From a virus, in IMG/VR virus record IMGVR_UViG_3300042691_033711, positions 1-20,878 of that record: DNA of 20,878 nt; one strand, written 5' to 3'. A program made the position numbers and the translations under genes. Shown in pieces: positions 13,898 to 20,878 of the stretch. Each line of letters starts with the position of its first letter. Positions within the stretch are counted from its first letter, which is position 1. Under the pieces are notes generated by a model that saw only the letters and a program-made list of their open reading frames with translations, was not told where the DNA came from and made no database searches.

Positions 13898-15958
13898 ATG
13901 GTTATTATTAGAAAAAAAACAGTTATGATAGAATCCGCGGATAATGATGGGAAAAAATCTAAACAGACCACAAGTGATAGTGGTACCCCTGTATTAGATA
14001 ACTTTAGTAGAGATTTAATTAAACTCGCCGAGCAAGGTAAAATTGACCCCGTTGTCGGTAGGGAGAGGGAAATAACAAGGATTGCTCAAATTCTTTCAAG
14101 AAGAAAGAAGAATAATCCAATCATCATTGGTGAGCCCGGTTGTGGTAAAACCGCAATTGTTGAGGGTCTTGCCATCAAGATATTTGAAGGCGATTGTCCA
14201 AGAAACCTACAAGATAAACGTATCGTATCTTTGGACATGACCTCAATTGTTGCCGGTACAAAGTATCGTGGTCAATTCGAGGAACGTATGAAAGTGATTA
14301 TTGAAGAGCTTCAGAACAACCCAAATATCATCGTTTTCATTGATGAGATACATACAATTGTGGGGGCAGGTAATTCGTCAGGTTCATTGGACGCGTCAAA
14401 CATATTCAAACCAGCTCTTGCTCGTGGCGAAATTCAATGTGTGGGGGCAACAACAAATGATGAGTATCGTAAAAATTTTGAGAAGGATGGGGCTCTTGAA
14501 CGTAGGTTCCAAAAGGTAGTTGTTGATGCGGCAACCAAGGCGGAAACACTACAAATCCTACAAAACACAAAAGACAAATACGAAACGTATCACAAAGTTT
14601 CTTACTCGGATACCATTTTGAGTTTGTGTGTTGATTTGGCCGAGCGATATATTACAGACAGAGAATTTCCTGATAAGGCATTTGACATTATTGATGAAGT
14701 CGGAGCAAGAAGTCAGGTTGAGATTAAAATGCCCGAGATAATTGATGACTTGAAAAAACAAGCTCAAGATATCAAACAACAAAAACTCGATGTTGTTAAA
14801 AAACAAAATTATGAGGAAGCCGCAAATTTGAGAGATAAGGAAAAGAAAATCCTATCGAAACTCGAGGATGAAAAGAAAAAATTCGAGTATGATTTGTTGT
14901 TATCAAAGAGAGATGTAACCGAAGAATTGGTATATGAAGTTGTTTCAAACATGACCAAAATCCCAATTTCAAAACTTAATTCAGATGAGACAAAACTATT
15001 AACAGAGCTTGAGAAAAATCTTTCAGGTAAAGTTATTGGTCAAGAAGAGGCGGTCATCAAAATCTCAAAATCAATTAGAAGAAACCGTTTAGGTATCAAG
15101 GACCCGAATAAACCAATTGGTTCATTTATTTTCCTTGGCTCAACTGGTGTCGGTAAAACATTACTGGCAAAACAACTCGCAAAGGAAATCTTTGGTAGTG
15201 AAGACAATCTTATCAGAGTTGATATGTCAGAGTTTCAAGAAAAACACACAATCTCTCGTTTGATTGGAGCTCCTCCAGGATATGTGGGATATGATGAGGG
15301 TGGTCAATTGACAGAACAGGTAAAAAACAAACCATATTCGGTTGTATTGTTTGACGAGATTGAAAAGGCAAACAAGGATATCTTTTCGGCACTTTTACAA
15401 GTTTTAGACGATGGACATATCACAGACGGACTTGGTAGAAAAATAAACTTCAAGAATTGTGTAATCATAATGACATCAAATATTGGTGTTAAAATGTTAC
15501 AAGATTTTGGTTCAGGAATTGGTTTCAAATCAGCGGCGAACACATATATCGAAGAAGAGTATAAGAGAGATATGTTGAAAAAGGAGCTCAAGAAATTTTT
15601 TGCCCCTGAGTTCTTAAACCGAATTGATGAGATTATCGTATTCAATAACTTGAAGAAAGAACAAATCGCCGAGATTGTAAAAATTGAATTAAATAAATTA
15701 TCAAAAAGATTGACAGGTTTGAGATATCGTATTAACTTTACTGACTCAATTGTTGATTTAATATCAGAAGTTGGTTTTGATGAAACCTATGGAGCTCGTC
15801 CATTGAAAAGGGCAATCCAAGACAAAATCGAAGATTATATTTCTGAAGAAGTATTAAAAGGGAACATATCCGAAGAAAAGGAATATGAGTTAGTCGCGGA
15901 AGAAGGTAATGTAAAAATTACCGAGACTAAAAAGACAAGAAAGAAGAAGGGGTCATAA
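13898..15958 (+). CDS. clpC: ClpC-like AAA+ unfoldase lacking the N-terminal domain
   Basis: This 686-residue protein should be a hexameric ATPase that unfolds proteins for a ClpP-type peptidase. AAA-1: GEPGCGKT (78-85), pore loop KYRG (122-125), FIDEIH (147-152), ERRF arginine region (201-204). A UVR/coiled-coil segment follows (about 290-330, [17 protein letters not shown]), typical of ClpC. AAA-2: GSTGVGKT (414-421), pore loop GYVGYDEGG (461-469), LFDE (484-487), [11 protein letters not shown] (572-582). An IGF tripeptide at 541-543 occupies the position of the ClpP-docking loop of ClpC/ClpA, so ClpP partnership looks preserved. The usual 140-150-residue Clp N-domain, which binds adaptors and substrates, is replaced by about 30 polar residues. 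Host ClpC is around 800-850 residues. The gene is on the plus strand. No ClpP is in the window. Confidence 0.95.
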
Positions 15959-16382: not shown

Positions 16383-17207
16383 TTAAAAAAGTAAAAATTG
16401 TTTTTGTTTAACTATCGATGTTTTGTGTTTCTTATTACCTAATGACTCAATCATTTTCTTACCGGTTTCAATACCATTAAATACGTCTTCAATTACCACA
16501 TATTCATCGGGTGAATGATAGTCATAATAACCAATTGAGATATTGATACAAGAAAAATCAAATTTACTACGAAGAGCGTACACGTCAGTATATGGGTGTG
16601 AACCATATTTTTGTCGTCCTTCGAATGACTCACTCAATACCCCATCACAGATTTTGAAAAAGTCATCAGACTTATCAAACAATTTTACACCCATACTATA
16701 TTCAGTAACCATCCAATTAAACGGAGCATCAAACTGAATTGCGTATCCTACATTTGAAAAGAAGTTTGGGTCGGCCTTTCTTGAGCCGTGACAACCAGTT
16801 TCTTCTGACACAAAGAACGCGGCTTTCAACACGGGTAACTCTTTCAATAATTCTAAACAAGCAAATACTCCACACTTATTATCACCACCAATACCTGTAG
16901 GTTTTCCAAAATCATTGTATGCTTTCAAAGACGGACGAAGCTCACCTTGGGCATTTTCCAATTCCTCTTCTCGAATGTTAATCACATCAATATTATGTAC
17001 GGTATCGGTGTGAGCAACAACACATGGGTAGTATGAATGCTCACCAATCTCACCTTTAGTAGCATAAACATTCCAATGCTCATCTACCGAGTATTCAATG
17101 TTATTACGCTCAAGCCAATCAATCAAAAACTCAATCATGAGTTCCTCTTGATAGGTCTTTGTTGGTACCGACAAAACTGATTTAAGGAAATTCAGGTCTT
17201 TTTTCAT
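16383..17207 (-). CDS. M20-type zinc metallopeptidase (PepT/aminopeptidase-like)
   Basis: This is a 274-residue enzyme of the di-zinc M20/M28 superfamily, likely an amino- or tripeptidase or deacylase. All five metal-ligand motifs are present: VVAHTDTV (His66, catalytic Asp68), GIGGDNKCG (bridging Asp109), VSEETGCHG (general base Glu135, ligand Glu136), IQFDAP (Asp160) and DYHSPDEYV (His231). It is much shorter than PepT (about 410 residues) because the dimerisation/lid insert usually found between the fourth and fifth motifs is reduced, so the substrate range cannot be read off. There is no signal peptide, so it acts in the cytoplasm. Its promoter-like TATCTTTG matches that of the tmRNA and lies inside an inverted repeat, unlike the TATTTAT genes around it. 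Confidence 0.88.
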   Translation of the reverse strand: MKKDLNFLKSVLSVPTKTYQEELMIEFLIDWLERNNIEYSVDEHWNVYATKGEIGEHSYYPCVVAHTDTVHNIDVINIREEELENAQGELRPSLKAYNDFGKPTGIGGDNKCGVFACLELLKELPVLKAAFFVSEETGCHGSRKADPNFFSNVGYAIQFDAPFNWMVTEYSMGVKLFDKSDDFFKICDGVLSESFEGRQKYGSHPYTDVYALRSKFDFSCINISIGYYDYHSPDEYVVIEDVFNGIETGKKMIESLGNKKHKTSIVKQKQFLLF

Positions 17208-17249: not shown

Positions 17250-18311
17250 TTAGAATAATTCTGGATGATATAAGAAATTGTAAAAATCTTCAAGGGGAAC
17301 AGACATTTTTTTAACATCATGGTAATTTTCCTTGTTGGCTTTATAAAGTACATTGACTTTACCATCTTCCATATTTTGTATATTGAATATTTTTTTCCCG
17401 TCTATTTTGCCAAATGTTTTTTCTTTGGGGAAATTTTGCCAATCCCCTACTTTCATATTTAATTTTTCAATAAGTTCATAAAACTTTTTGACGTTTTCCA
17501 AATCCTCAGGTGACATATCATCAGTTATTTTATCATGAATTTTTTCTAAAATTCTATTAACTTCCCTATTAAATCCGTCACCATCCCAGTTTTCATTATC
17601 CCAATAGCTATAATAATCCTCATATAAATCTTCGTCAAATTCTAAGTTATTCTGAGATACAAAATTTTTTAACATGTCAATAATACTTTCATCATGTGGT
17701 GTTTTTGTTTGGTCCCAAAAACCAATTAACAAATCAACCGTTGTAACATAATGTTCTCTACAACTTCTTTCAATAATACCATAGTTATCGAACTTTTTAC
17801 ATAATTTTTTTTGGACGTAATCCAAACATCCTTTCCTTAAAGTCTCATCGTAATAATCTGCGTAGTAAGAACCAATGTCGTCTATTATATTTCCAAACAT
17901 GTCGTATAAAAAACGTCCAGTTTTTTCAGGGTTATGTAATTCAAAATTGGCAAGAGGAGGATTTACCAACTTTAGTATATCCCGTAGTAATTTGATATTT
18001 TCTTCATTGAAGTAATGAAAAACATATCCTTCTCTGAGTTCCTCATCTCCCCAATATCCATCAACAAATAAATTTTCAGTATATCTACTTTCACAAGCGG
18101 CAATCATGCTAGCGGTGTTAGAATAATCATTTTCATCATCAATAAAAATTTTCATAAATTCTTCTTCGGTGAATCTCAACTGGACCAAAGATTTTCCACG
18201 ATTTTTTGTCACCCTTGTAATTTGAACAACTCTATCGTCATCAGCTTCTCTAACAAATAGAGGGTCAAGGTCTGAATCACGAAATTGTATAAGAGCTTGG
18301 TATAATTCCAT
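17250..18311 (-). CDS. Unknown acidic 353-residue protein
   Basis: This 353-residue protein is unusually rich in Asp, Glu, Tyr and Asn (for example EDLYEDYYSYWDNENWDGDG near 235-255). No membrane segment, signal peptide or catalytic motif is recognised. The first 50 residues look like a beta-rich start (DDRVVQITRVTKNRGKSLVQLRF), the middle is helical, and the C-terminal 60 residues look like a small beta domain (GKIDGKKIFNIQNMEDGKVNVLYKA). It could be a DNA mimic or a structural protein, but nothing visible decides this. Its start is divergent from the tmRNA and the two promoters nearly touch (18326-18333 and 18335-18365). Confidence 0.83.
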   Translation of the reverse strand: MELYQALIQFRDSDLDPLFVREADDDRVVQITRVTKNRGKSLVQLRFTEEEFMKIFIDDENDYSNTASMIAACESRYTENLFVDGYWGDEELREGYVFHYFNEENIKLLRDILKLVNPPLANFELHNPEKTGRFLYDMFGNIIDDIGSYYADYYDETLRKGCLDYVQKKLCKKFDNYGIIERSCREHYVTTVDLLIGFWDQTKTPHDESIIDMLKNFVSQNNLEFDEDLYEDYYSYWDNENWDGDGFNREVNRILEKIHDKITDDMSPEDLENVKKFYELIEKLNMKVGDWQNFPKEKTFGKIDGKKIFNIQNMEDGKVNVLYKANKENYHDVKKMSVPLEDFYNFLYHPELF

Positions 18312-18325
18312 TAAAAACTTTTTTA

Positions 18326-18333
18326 TATAAATA
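18326..18333 (-). promoter_or_regulatory. TATTTATA promoter-like site of the 353-residue gene
   Basis: The minus strand reads AAGTATTTATATAAAAAAG, 14 nt before ATG 18311. It abuts the -33 element of the divergent tmRNA promoter, so one promoter could interfere with the other. Confidence 0.55.
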
Positions 18334-18334
18334 C

Positions 18335-18365
18335 TTGGAATGGCAATAAACTATTTATATCTTTG
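18335..18365 (+). promoter_or_regulatory. tmRNA promoter of Bacteroidota type (TTG-N20-TATCTTTG)
   Basis: TTG at 18335-18337 and TATCTTTG at 18358-18365 are 20 nt apart and match the Bacteroidota housekeeping consensus TTG-N17-23-TAnnTTTG. The expected start point is a few bases downstream, leaving a leader of about 15 nt before the mature tmRNA 5' end at 18386. This would allow transcription by unmodified host RNA polymerase from the start of infection. Confidence 0.7.
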
Positions 18366-18385
18366 TACCACGTTATTTGAAATAT

Positions 18386-18763
18386 GGGGGTAACTTGGAA
18401 TTGACTAGCATAGTTAATTACTCGGAGCATGTCGAGGCTGAACTAACCTTGTAAAACTGGTTCACAAGATAAATGGCAACATTATCAACAAACTCTCTGC
18501 AGTTGGTCTTATCCGTACTGAGGAGAACATTTCAGTAGCCTAATCTAGGATTGGGGTACAAAACGGGTCGGCAGACAGACAACCTTGGAACAGAAGTCGT
18601 AGTTGCGGTGTGGTTTCTACCCAAAAAGAAACAAAACTCGTTTGTGGTTTTATGAGCTCAAAAACCAATATTTCGGAACATTGAGAAGCGATGTTGTCCT
18701 AAACATGTAGGGCTTAGTAGTTAAGATGAGTAGGAAGGGGTTCGACTCCCCATACCTCCACCA
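18386..18763 (+). ncRNA. ssrA: tmRNA (transfer-messenger RNA), complete
   Basis: This 378-nt tmRNA should rescue stalled ribosomes by trans-translation with SmpB. The 7-bp acceptor stem pairs GGGGGUA (18386-18392) with UACCUCC (18753-18759, one G-U), then A60-type discriminator and encoded CCA (18761-18763). The T-arm has GGGG-UUCGACU-CCCC (18737-18751). The 5' part keeps family landmarks (AACUUGGAAUUGACU, then GAGCAUGUCGAGG and CCUUGUAAAA), and the 3' part keeps AACAUGUAG of helix P2. It is one-piece, not permuted. A Bacteroidota-type promoter lies upstream and a strong terminator 3 nt downstream. No SmpB gene is in the window, so host SmpB is probably used. It is on the plus strand, like the Clp and bS21 genes. 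Confidence 0.97.
18475..18543 (+). other. tmRNA tag-peptide reading frame, 22 residues
   Basis: The frame opens at resume codon GGC (18475-18477) and stops at TAA (18541-18543). The tag begins GNIINKLSAV and ends RTEENISVA. Gly as first residue agrees with Bacteroidota tmRNAs as I recall them (GEN...ALAA type), but the tag is more than twice as long and ends in Ser-Val-Ala instead of Leu-Ala-Ala. The alternative frame starting at GCA (18476) would give a 20-residue tag ending in Phe-Gln and stopping at TAG; its polar end makes it less likely. Confidence 0.8.
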
Positions 18764-18766
18764 ATT

Positions 18767-18798
18767 AAAAAACCCCTCACTTGGAGGGGTTTTCTTTT
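18767..18798. terminator. Bidirectional terminator between tmRNA and glycosyltransferase genes
   Basis: CCCCTC (18773-18778) and GAGGGG (18784-18789) close the loop ACTTG, with six A before and a T-run after, so it can end both the tmRNA (plus) and the glycosyltransferase gene (minus). The first 26 bases are identical to 19886-19911. Confidence 0.9.
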
Positions 18799-19810
18799 AT
18801 CCAAAATATTTTGTCCAAATTCTTTCTGATTTCAGAGAATACCACCACAACCCTATCTTATTGAATACCCTTGTGTATGGATATAACAACGCCAATCTCA
18901 TTCTTCTAACGATACTATAAACCTTTGAAGGATTAGCATGGAATAATCGACTAACCCATGGTATCTCTTCTGAAACAACAACAGGAACGTTATTATTCAC
19001 AAAATCAGCGGTTACAATGTTGAACGTCTCCGTAAATGAAACTTGCATTCCCAAGTCCATTGACTGAACAACATCGATGAATTCATCGTGAGTCAGCCAT
19101 GTATATTCAATTAATTCGTGTCTTGGATTATTCTTGAATAGTTCCCTAATGTTCTTTAACACCGGCTCACCCTTTCCTTCAATCCTTTTAACATTGATGT
19201 GAAATTTTAATTTTTTACCGTATGTATCAGCATAATCAATAGCCGCAACCGCTTGTATCAACTGATTTTTTAGTGGCCTTACCGCACCAAAACAACCAAT
19301 ATTCAATTCCTTTTTGAAAAATGGTTTCGATTTGTTTTTATTAAAAAATCCTACAGGGTAATAATTCGGTAGATATAAAAAAGCTCTATTTGTCAGGTCT
19401 GAAAAATTTTCATTCGTGTCATAGTCATTTGCGGATATAATGACATTCGGATATTTGGTGTATTGATATATCCAGTCAATGGCAATACCCTCATTTGCCA
19501 AAAATGATATGTCGCTATGTAATCGTATAATCCACTTAACATTCGGATGAAGTTTAGTCAAAACCTCAAACTTTGATGGGACAACCCAAAGAGCCTCGAT
19601 AATTACGTGAGTAGGTTTATGTTTGGTGACTTCTCTGTCAATGCAGTTGTTGTCATTCACCTCAACCAAGTTTGACTCAATGCCGTTTTTGTTCAACATA
19701 TCCGATACAAACTTAGCCGAATTCAATAGCCCAGACGATACTGAACTATAATTTGGGTGAGAACTCTGTCTTTTTTTGAGGATGAAAAGAACCTTTTTTT
19801 CCTTTTTCAT
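18797..19810 (-). CDS. GT-B glycosyltransferase (GT4-like)
   Basis: This 337-residue protein has the two-lobed GT-B pattern. The N-lobe starts KKVLFILKK and has a loop with a Ser/Gly cluster (SSVSSGLLNSAKFVSDML, about 22-40). The C-lobe starts at LNIGCFGAVRPLKNQ (169-183), the usual nucleotide-sugar-side glycine loop with K181. It continues to MDLGMQVSFTETFNIVTADF (251-270), where Glu261 and the acid eight residues on resemble the GT4 E-x7-E motif with Asp269 in the second place. The end is basic and aromatic (RRMRLALLYPYTRVF, then WWYSLKSERIWTKYF), which could mean membrane association. Phage glycosyltransferases modify DNA, virion proteins or host surface sugars; the sequence does not decide. 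It lies between two identical terminators. Confidence 0.82.
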   Translation of the reverse strand: MKKEKKVLFILKKRQSSHPNYSSVSSGLLNSAKFVSDMLNKNGIESNLVEVNDNNCIDREVTKHKPTHVIIEALWVVPSKFEVLTKLHPNVKWIIRLHSDISFLANEGIAIDWIYQYTKYPNVIISANDYDTNENFSDLTNRAFLYLPNYYPVGFFNKNKSKPFFKKELNIGCFGAVRPLKNQLIQAVAAIDYADTYGKKLKFHINVKRIEGKGEPVLKNIRELFKNNPRHELIEYTWLTHDEFIDVVQSMDLGMQVSFTETFNIVTADFVNNNVPVVVSEEIPWVSRLFHANPSKVYSIVRRMRLALLYPYTRVFNKIGLWWYSLKSERIWTKYFG

Positions 19811-19829
19811 AAGTGGGTGGGATTATACC

Positions 19830-19837
19830 TATAAATA
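19830..19837 (-). promoter_or_regulatory. TATTTATA promoter-like site of the glycosyltransferase gene
   Basis: The minus strand reads TTATTTATAGGTATAATCC, 19 nt before ATG 19810. The site is just after the 19886-19917 terminator in transcription direction. Confidence 0.5.
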
Positions 19838-19885
19838 AGGTGAAAACCTCAAATGTGTATTACTTTTTTGTAATATTTTAATAAT

Positions 19886-19917
19886 AAAAAACCCCTCACT
19901 TGGAGGGGTTTCTTTTT
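19886..19917. terminator. Second copy of the bidirectional terminator
   Basis: CCCCTC (19892-19897) and GAGGGG (19903-19908) close the loop ACTTG, with flanking A and T runs. It ends the 99-residue gene on the minus strand. The core 26 bases repeat those at 18767-18792 exactly and in the same orientation. Confidence 0.88.
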
Positions 19918-20215
19918 AACTTTCTTTTTCTTTGTATTGATAAATTACTTTATCAACTCTTTTGTCGGTGTAACTCGTACATTCTTGGTGGAGTTTGTCA
20001 AAATCTCTGTAGAAGTTAGAAAATCTTTCTTGGATTTCTCTATGATGTTCATCAAAACGACGATGATGATTTTCGAAATCCCATCTGTAAGATTCTTTAA
20101 AACCTTGAACATCTCTTTGTAGTTTTTGAACTTTACTCATCCCTAAAATCACCACCCCAACTAATGTCAGAGCAATAACTGTAAGAACACCTAAAGTGAA
20201 ATAAAACATTTCCAT
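19916..20215 (-). CDS. Small N-terminally membrane-anchored coiled-coil protein
   Basis: This 99-residue protein has one clear transmembrane helix at about 5-26 (YFTLGVLTVIALTLVGVVIL), then a long charged helix (about 28-95) rich in His, Arg, Glu and Phe (FENHHRRFDEHHREIQERF). The layout would suit an inner-membrane spanin-like or superinfection-related protein, but no family motif identifies it and no lysis partner is seen next to it. Before the start there is no TATTTAT site. A 5-bp inverted repeat (ATACC and GGTAT, 20237-20251) lies 22 nt upstream and may be regulatory. The transcript might be readthrough from the tRNA region. Confidence 0.82.
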   Translation of the reverse strand: MEMFYFTLGVLTVIALTLVGVVILGMSKVQKLQRDVQGFKESYRWDFENHHRRFDEHHREIQERFSNFYRDFDKLHQECTSYTDKRVDKVIYQYKEKES

Positions 20216-20265
20216 AAAATAAAAGAATTATTGTTTATACCTGAATGGTATTAAAAATATAGGAA

Positions 20266-20290
20266 TAAAAAAAGGTGAGACAAGCTCACC
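20266..20290 (-). terminator. Rho-independent terminator after the tRNA gene
   Basis: On the minus strand GGTGAG (complement of 20285-20290) and CTCACC (complement of 20274-20279) form a perfect 6-bp stem with loop CTTGT, followed by TTTTTTTATT. It lies 10 nt after the tRNA 3' end and would end a leftward transcript carrying the tRNA and the upstream structured RNA. Confidence 0.88.
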
Positions 20291-20300
20291 TGTAAATTTG

Positions 20301-20373
20301 TTGCAACTGAAGGATTCGAACCTCCGACCTTCAGGTTATGAGCCTGACGAGCTGGCCTCTGCTCTAAGTTGCG
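20301..20373 (-). tRNA. tRNA-Met(CAU), initiator type (tRNA-fMet)
   Basis: This 73-nt cloverleaf reads from C1 (20373) to A73 (20301). The acceptor stem has a C1-A72 mismatch followed by six pairs (GCAACT with AGTTGC). The D-stem is GAGC/GCTC with A11-U24, the anticodon arm is TCAGG-CTCATAA-CCTGA with anticodon CAU, the variable loop is AGGTC, and the T-arm is GGAGG-TTCGAAT-CCTTC. The C1-A72 mismatch and A11-U24 are hallmarks of bacterial initiator tRNA. The anticodon stem has A29-U41 in place of the first of the usual three G-C pairs. CCA is not encoded (CAA follows), so host CCA-adding enzyme is needed. An elongator or Ile (lysidine) tRNA is less likely given the mismatch. Confidence 0.93.
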
Positions 20374-20878
20374 ATGTATTAGTTAAACGAAGCCTGAGAT
20401 TATAGCTTTGATTGAGAACCTTTTGAAGGATTATTGTTTCCCTTCGTATCCACTTCCTTTTGAGAAGTATTTCTCAGTCACGGTCTTTTAGGTTTACCAC
20501 TCCTTGAGGTTTAAGTTACTCTCTTCTTACTTGACTCTTTTTGAGGTTGCCACCCCAATTCATCCTTGCAGGATTAAAGGTCTTTCGTAAAACTACAGTC
20601 AGACTTGGGGTCTTTCTGTGCAATGAACGGCTCATTACTATGTAGTGACCTTTCACTTAAACCTGATGGACACTTTTCCTTTAATTATTGTTCATAATTT
20701 TAGAATTGTGTCGTGGATGTGTCAGAGTAGTGGTCCACCGTAAGCTCCGTCTCCTTTTGGGCGACAGAATACTAAACTACTCCGTGAGATATCCCTATCT
20801 CCATACTATCAGATTACTTCATAAAGAGACCTTGGTAGGTCATCCTTAGGGGTAGTAGCGACACCACTCGTTCTCTAC
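20374..20878 (-). ncRNA. Candidate large structured noncoding RNA upstream of the tRNA (runs off the window)
   Basis: These 505 bases hold no reading frame of note and look unlike the flanking genes: higher G+C, few A/T runs, many perfect short palindromes. Hairpins or helices visible: 20461-20476 (6 bp, loop 4), 20425-20445 (5 bp), 20552-20558 with 20605-20611 (7 bp, enclosing a 5-bp hairpin at 20562-20574), 20620-20638 (7 bp, one G-U), 20644-20657 (5 bp), 20683-20699 (6 bp), 20725-20731 with 20776-20782 (7 bp, enclosing 20745-20751 with 20763-20769, 7 bp with two G-U), 20786-20801 (6 bp, minus-strand loop GGGA, a GNRA tetraloop) and 20828-20841 (5 bp). The minus strand fits best because of the GNRA loop and the tRNA and terminator downstream. 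The setting recalls GOLLD and ROOL RNAs, but I cannot confirm a family. Confidence 0.6.

Follow-up and report, generated by a model that had tools for sequence, protein, structure and literature searches.

A phage GOLLD RNA and its recurrent, ordered linkage to tmRNA and SmpB genes

The question raised by this locus is what kind of molecule is specified by positions 20374-20878 of the window (by which we mean the whole stretch of DNA analyzed, 20,878 nucleotides), in which terminase, portal and head maturation protease genes, among others, reveal a phage. The original prediction held that the stretch is noncoding and structured, and that it belongs to GOLLD, to ROOL or to a new class of the same kind. 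The Rfam search that it proposed gave a clear answer: the minus strand at 20391-20784 is GOLLD (RF02032), with a score of 315.3 bits against a gathering cut-off of 150 and with the model matched over its full length (1-416 of 416, not cut off), while ROOL gave no match in 18200-20878 even at E values up to 1. The assignment to the GOLLD family is certain, and the best explanation overall, to which we give a probability of about 0.9, is a GOLLD RNA of a tailed phage whose host is probably a member of the Bacteroidota; judged by its relatives, the phage would be a large one. Since the record ends at 20878 (the whole record has 20878 bases), the remainder of the GOLLD 5' domain lies outside it. 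The parts of the RNA within the window are the following.

20391-20784, minus strand: conserved 3' domain of the GOLLD RNA (full-model match to RF02032)
20785-20878, minus strand: start of the GOLLD 5' domain (94 nt), cut by the record end (alignment to the conserved 5' region of relatives and covarying hairpin pairs)
20678-20679, minus strand: linker side of a covarying crossing contact, read as bridge B7
20607-20608, minus strand: loop side of the same crossing contact
20568-20569, minus strand: GC dinucleotide in a loop read as L21a (self-kissing bridge B8)

A different large RNA class, be it ROOL or a new one, would have only a general resemblance in its favor; with a full-length GOLLD match far above the cut-off and no ROOL match, its probability is negligible and we consider it ruled out. 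The same applies to a protein-coding stretch, as only short frames are present: the longest listed open frame is 53 amino acids, and the longest stop-free runs of 54 (plus strand) and 46 (minus strand) codons are shorter than the 66 codons averaged over 300 mononucleotide-shuffled versions of the plus strand. The predicted fold of the minus strand over 20374-20878 is unusually stable (-132.6 kcal/mol, z of -3.24, none of 100 shuffles as good); however, because the plus strand also folds moderately low (z of -2.12, 1 of 100 shuffles as good), hairpin counting alone is weak evidence, and it is the covariance-model match together with covariation that settles the RNA on the minus strand.

For the covariation analysis, which had also been suggested and was carried out by pair counting and mutual information rather than with R-scape, relatives were gathered from viral contigs by portal protein and DNA patterns, with one more from a named phage. 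This yielded 162 loci with a match to the 3' domain, 149 of them complete and 96 distinct including the window, some loci representing the same contig twice. Mutual information calculated on the 96 distinct sequences with no structure supplied recovered the helices, the crossing pairs and the kissing contact. When the Rfam pairs and the crossing pairs (107 pairs) were counted on 59 sequences, 93.9% of cells were paired, compared with 78.2% after shuffling (0 of 500 shuffles as high); the crossing pairs had been chosen from largely the same sequences and are favored in this count, and the shuffles ignore relatedness. Changes on both sides were seen in 85 of the 107 pairs, amounting to 946 double-change cells against 264 in the shuffled data for the same 59 sequences, and versions of the structure slid out of place reached 0.058-0.127, compared with 0.484 for the true register. 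Support is uneven among the helices (71.8% paired in helix 13), and 7 of the 107 pairs are nonstandard in the window copy. The structure is thus more than chance, because the comparative evidence is decisive where folding alone would be insufficient: covariation backs the conserved 3' domain, crossing pairs included, and the presence of a structured noncoding RNA on the minus strand, as originally proposed, is confirmed. The start of the 5' domain covaries as well, in the hairpin pairs 1/27, 2/26, 4/24, 10/19, 32/56 and 33/55 (counted from 20878).

The structure reported for env-38 GOLLD by Kretsch and others, as given in the accessible parts of their paper (PMC12286853), is a hollow 14-mer cage in which the 3' half is universally conserved and the less conserved 5' half forms the cap; an intermolecular kissing bridge, B7, joins loop L20 and a linker, the inner dinucleotide of the self-kissing loop L21a switches between GC and CG, and GOLLD expression goes up during phage lysis. 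In our alignment, 61 of the 96 sequences have G-C and 33 have C-G at the pair 20678/20608 of the crossing contact, and the loop read as L21a is of the GC type in 81, of the CG type in 14 and of another type in 1 of the 96 distinct sequences. The contact would correspond to B7 and the GC/CG loop to B8, names that follow the wording of those parts of PMC12286853 rather than a comparison of structures. By analogy with env-38 GOLLD, the window's RNA, which would be about 0.87 kb long if it resembles that of its relative L118, may self-assemble into a cage.

The 5' end of the RNA can be approached through the relatives. A promoter-like motif, TTG-N19/20-TANNTTTG, which we take to be the Bacteroidota promoter form, marks the position expected for the 5' end of the RNA in 84 of the 87 loci with enough upstream sequence, compared with 146 of 1,619 control windows of the same size, the pattern allowing spacers of 17-21. 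It stands where the conserved 5' region starts, often in several copies; two or three precede GOLLD in, for example, L111, L118 and L154. The RNA lengths predicted from the motif range from 821 to 1,021 nt (median, 914 nt), of which the window holds only 94 nt of the 5' domain, and GOLLD of the window would be transcribed from one or more such promoters beyond the record end. The promoter form and the relatives of a Clp-type ATPase encoded in the window (the best 80 of at least 594 genome relatives all bear Bacteroidota names, as judged from titles) suggest that the host is probably a member of the Bacteroidota. A GOLLD pattern gave 0 matches in the genome collection; the pattern is strict, which makes this weak evidence of absence from bacterial genomes. 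Among named phages searched with the window's GOLLD and tRNA, 51 records were matched; among the matches listed, the annotated ones were mostly tRNAs, and one match, in LR745206, lies at a GOLLD locus.

The RNA is followed on the same strand by a tRNA and a single terminator-like hairpin, an arrangement noticed at the outset and upheld here.

20300-20373, minus strand: tRNA-Met(CAT), initiator-like (tRNA scan; Rfam places it at 20301-20373)
20374-20390, minus strand: 17-nt spacer between GOLLD and the tRNA (sequence reading)
20273-20291, minus strand: terminator-like hairpin with a T run, read from 20291 to 20273, behind GOLLD and the tRNA

In bacterial initiator tRNAs, positions 1 and 72 do not form a Watson-Crick pair, and three G:C pairs stand at 29-31:39-41. 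The claim that the tRNA is of the initiator type stands in part: it carries the C1xA72 mismatch, A11:U24 and a CAT anticodon, but only two of the three anticodon-stem G:C pairs (29:41 is A-U) and no encoded CCA. Because one of the three G:C pairs is missing, we call it initiator-like rather than a proven initiator. Its matches in E. coli are annotated as tRNA-Met, at a median of 4 places per genome. Across the 118 distinct 3' domains available for comparison, a tRNA lies within 40 nt 3' of GOLLD in 21, and all 21 have the CAT anticodon; a further 24 have smpB within 6 kb, a share biased upward because 22 of the 118 were entered via smpB, 60 have neither, and 13 are too short to judge (less than 1.5 kb downstream and no tRNA or smpB match), these being kept in the group table and left outside the change counts (11 and 6). 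On the tree, at least 11 changes of the tRNA state next to GOLLD are counted. A tRNA at the 3' side is therefore ruled out as a general feature of GOLLD (21/118). Three relatives that were read (L114, L116 and L117) carry a terminator-like hairpin 3' of GOLLD instead of a tRNA, and in the divergent set L123-L126 a CAT tRNA is located 5' of GOLLD, as described for env-38.

These data bear on the suggestion that RNase P, by cutting at the 5' end of the tRNA, also defines the 3' end of the RNA. In the lineage of the window this is plausible, and the cut, followed by trimming, would set the GOLLD 3' end; it is not general, given that only 21 of 118 domains have such a tRNA. The tRNA could even serve as a processing device only, providing a clean 3' end through RNase P whatever its kind, a reading which we hold less likely than not. 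The short and narrow gap between GOLLD and the tRNA (10-24 nt) fits it, as does LR756502, a 642-kb phage with a non-CAT tRNA (Glu-like with an odd loop, by reading) at +10 from GOLLD; this phage also breaks the rule that the 3' tRNA is always CAT, which is true within the 118 set. The tRNA in question (LR756502.1, locus L494, 11454-11527) has an anticodon loop of apparently 6 bases and starts 10 nt 3' of GOLLD. Against a mere processing device speak the absence of the tRNA from this place in most relatives and the selectivity for CAT in the 118 set, as well as the acceptor stems: among the 14 distinct 3' tRNAs, a clean 1:72 mismatch is present in 9, positions 1 and 72 are paired in one (L256), and the acceptor register is uncertain in four (L150, L191, L192 and L217). 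In the control of phage tRNAs with clean acceptor stems, from which odd stems (12 CAT and 18 other tRNAs) and 13 unreadable rows had been removed, the mismatch occurred in 18 of 27 CAT tRNAs compared with 0 of 152 others.

Beyond the tRNA, the window holds a second structured RNA, facing GOLLD on the opposite strand, and a gene that recurs as a GOLLD neighbor.

18386-18763, plus strand: phage tmRNA, convergent with GOLLD (RF00023, 95.4 bits against a cut-off of 47; missed by ARAGORN)
18475-18543, plus strand: tag frame of the tmRNA, GNIINKLSAVGLIRTEENISVA followed by a stop (frame reading)
13898-15958, plus strand: Clp/Hsp100-type double-AAA ATPase (domain match, below the curated cut-offs of the ClpA and ClpB models)

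The tRNA-like ends of tmRNA are marked by G3-U70 and CCA, and the window copy has both, in addition to its tag frame with a stop. The phage tag is long (about 21-22 amino acids) and conserved, being roughly GN(V/I)(L/I)NK(L/M)xxxGLxRxxExxVA. It was read in 36 of 39 loci (L103-L110 and L276-L305, some of which contain the same gene) by a rule accepting frames that start with G or A plus N, D, E or K; in Bacteroidota genome tmRNAs, ARAGORN reads tags of 9-10 amino acids ending in YA(L/M)AA in 27 of 29. The inner conservation of the phage tag may point to a function beyond degradation. As a finder of these phage tmRNAs, ARAGORN was rejected, for among the phage loci scanned it reported one in just three, two of which hold the same gene. 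Because ARAGORN finds so few, tmRNA was counted throughout by matches over the Rfam cut-off; weaker RF00023 matches, seen also in archaeal controls, were left out. Of 105 loci, 32 encode a relative of the ATPase and 45 a relative of a peptidase-like protein in the 5 kb that follow GOLLD on its 3' side; rows of this comparison that placed window genes upstream arose from a slicing artefact and were disregarded. Both proteins are possibly partners of the odd tag. In the window, the peptidase-like protein (16383-17207) lies, like the ATPase, beyond the tmRNA as seen from GOLLD. The frames between GOLLD and the tmRNA (18797-19810 and 19916-20215) gave no Pfam match; the second encodes a 99-amino-acid protein with, by eye, an N-terminal membrane helix and a coiled coil, and a protein of 111 amino acids built in the same manner follows smpB in L417.

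The neighborhood of the window proved to be one instance of a recurrent arrangement. The first set comprised 50 records, including 5 that a GOLLD pattern had retrieved. GOLLD was present in 16, and 12 of these 16 also contained a tmRNA, compared with 2 of the 34 records without GOLLD; a tmRNA was likewise found in 31 of 50 further GOLLD records. With the window included, 44 of 67 GOLLD records hold a tmRNA, and in all 44 it is located beyond the 3' end of GOLLD and on the other strand, at a distance of 114-6,316 nt (median, 982 nt) on contigs of up to 322 kb. SmpB was found in ten records, namely 8 of the 50 further ones and 2 of 39 from the first set, the latter two both containing GOLLD. Seven of the ten encode it on the GOLLD strand, no more than 1 kb beyond the 3' end of GOLLD, and a tmRNA follows in six of these seven; the remaining three encode it at a distance of tens of kilobases or more. 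The link was also seen in the reverse direction, in a search for phage SmpB that was blind to GOLLD and returned 70 viral loci. GOLLD was located upstream on the same strand, at 75-4,037 nt, in 40 of the 70; these comprised 40 of the 44 loci with an SmpB identity of at least 70% and none of the 26 below it, and in the four misses among the close homologues the contig is cut within 1.9 kb upstream. Whole-record searches, done for 50 of the 70 loci, gave GOLLD in 32, tmRNA in 32 and both in 25 over the cut-offs, with 23 of the 25 convergent within 7 kb. Taken together, 66 of the 68 records holding both GOLLD and tmRNA (44 plus 25 from the SmpB set, less one record common to both sets) show the two tail to tail at a distance of no more than 7 kb; as these records are related to one another, some of them nearly identical, and are for the most part fragmentary, such counts do not represent independent events. 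GOLLD, a CAT tRNA and smpB succeed one another at two loci, L456 and L458, whose records also contain a convergent tmRNA.

The linkage of GOLLD, tmRNA and SmpB is not universal. No SmpB gene is located between GOLLD and the tmRNA in the window. A tmRNA over the cut-off is absent from 23 of the 67 GOLLD records, many of which are fragments, and GOLLD in G095, counted among the 67, consists of partial matches below the cut-off at a contig end; that GOLLD always comes with tmRNA is ruled out by the 44 of 67, mostly fragments though these records are. That the tmRNA is always near and convergent is excluded by two exceptions among the 68, G154, with the tmRNA upstream on the same strand, and G149, with the tmRNA about 194 kb away. 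In the SmpB set, 7 of 32 GOLLD records lack a tmRNA over the cut-off, two of them having a match just below it, and 7 of 32 tmRNA records lack GOLLD over the cut-off, some being cut contigs. Two phages of 0.63-0.64 Mb, LR745206 and LR756502, contain GOLLD and, in a search with stricter filters, gave no tmRNA over the cut-off; SmpB and tmRNA occur without GOLLD in three Lak phages and in MT835488, and LR756501 has an SmpB match without GOLLD and with no tmRNA over the cut-off. Phage relatives with a tmRNA bearing the same kind of tag and no GOLLD match were also observed (G032 and G038; loci L105, L108, L127 and L128).

Linkage is not function, and the recurrent neighborhood can be explained in more than one way. 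Judging from its neighbors only, we tentatively propose, as a reading more doubtful than probable, that GOLLD takes part in phage-controlled translation during infection, together with the phage tmRNA, SmpB and the initiator-like tRNA; it would, for example, bind or store ribosomal particles or tRNA. A more elaborate version, which we regard as only slightly less probable, would join GOLLD, the initiator tRNA, SmpB, the tagged tmRNA and the Clp-type ATPase into a phage island for ribosome rescue and translation takeover, in which the RNA cage would act as a compartment or scaffold, for instance by housing rescued ribosomal subunits or by keeping initiator tRNA available to phage messages; the tag would direct stalled products to a fate chosen by the phage.

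At about even odds, GOLLD could instead be one more gene in a hot spot of phage translation genes, where neighbors gather by transcription timing or recombination and have no functional tie. Shared location could reflect such a hot spot because GOLLD has long been known near tRNA islands, as stated in the accessible text of PMC12286853; the occurrence of GOLLD without tmRNA and of tmRNA with SmpB without GOLLD, and the repeated changes of the tRNA state beside GOLLD, are equally in keeping with it. In L117, the one GOLLD-smpB gap that was read, a terminator-like hairpin and a separate promoter-like motif stand between the two, because of which GOLLD and smpB need not share a transcript. What mere gathering explains less readily is that the GOLLD-smpB order with a convergent tmRNA recurs across diverged GOLLD sequences, and that all 21 tRNAs adjoining GOLLD on the 3' side in the 118 set are CAT although CAT accounts for 39 of the 209 distinct tRNAs typed in these loci. 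The proposed role in translation draws on the same observations: the repeated, ordered linkage to tmRNA and SmpB, and partly to an initiator-like tRNA, opens a testable direction for the function of GOLLD, with more than 100 distinct natural sequences (118 distinct 3' domains) to work from.

GOLLD is an already known family, and what this study adds is the large set of sequences and the ordered genetic link to ribosome rescue. The 2025 cage paper, in its accessible parts, calls GOLLD a molecule of unknown function, with ribosome binding in pull-downs as one lead (PMC12286853). From the portions available of the respective papers, phage tmRNAs were already known (PMC9004378), as were phage-type extra tmRNAs in mycobacteria (PMC9569102). 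We found no statement of a link between GOLLD and tmRNA or SmpB in the literature searched, as far as its text was accessible (including PMC6582537, PMC9569102, PMC7162821 and PMC9004378), a search that most subscription papers, PMC7549688 on mycobacterial GOLLD and the original GOLLD description fell outside. The translation gene sets of huge phages resemble the present case in that tmRNA and SmpB have been reported there (PMC7162821); they differ in that GOLLD is not mentioned in the accessible part of that report, which was also absent from the literature found under GOLLD. ROOL, according to the same parts of PMC12286853, is likewise a large, cage-forming phage RNA near tRNAs, from which the present element is set apart by the Rfam result given above. 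The closest known system, as far as the accessible text of PMC12286853 describes it, is env-38 GOLLD. Whereas env-38 GOLLD lies downstream of a Met-tRNA, the tRNA-Met of the window stands 3' of the RNA, the neighborhood includes an opposing tmRNA and, in some relatives, smpB, and the 5' half of this copy lies outside the record; the two share the 3' domain with its crossing pairs, a contact fitting B7, a GC/CG switch fitting B8, the location in a phage and a tRNA-Met as neighbor.
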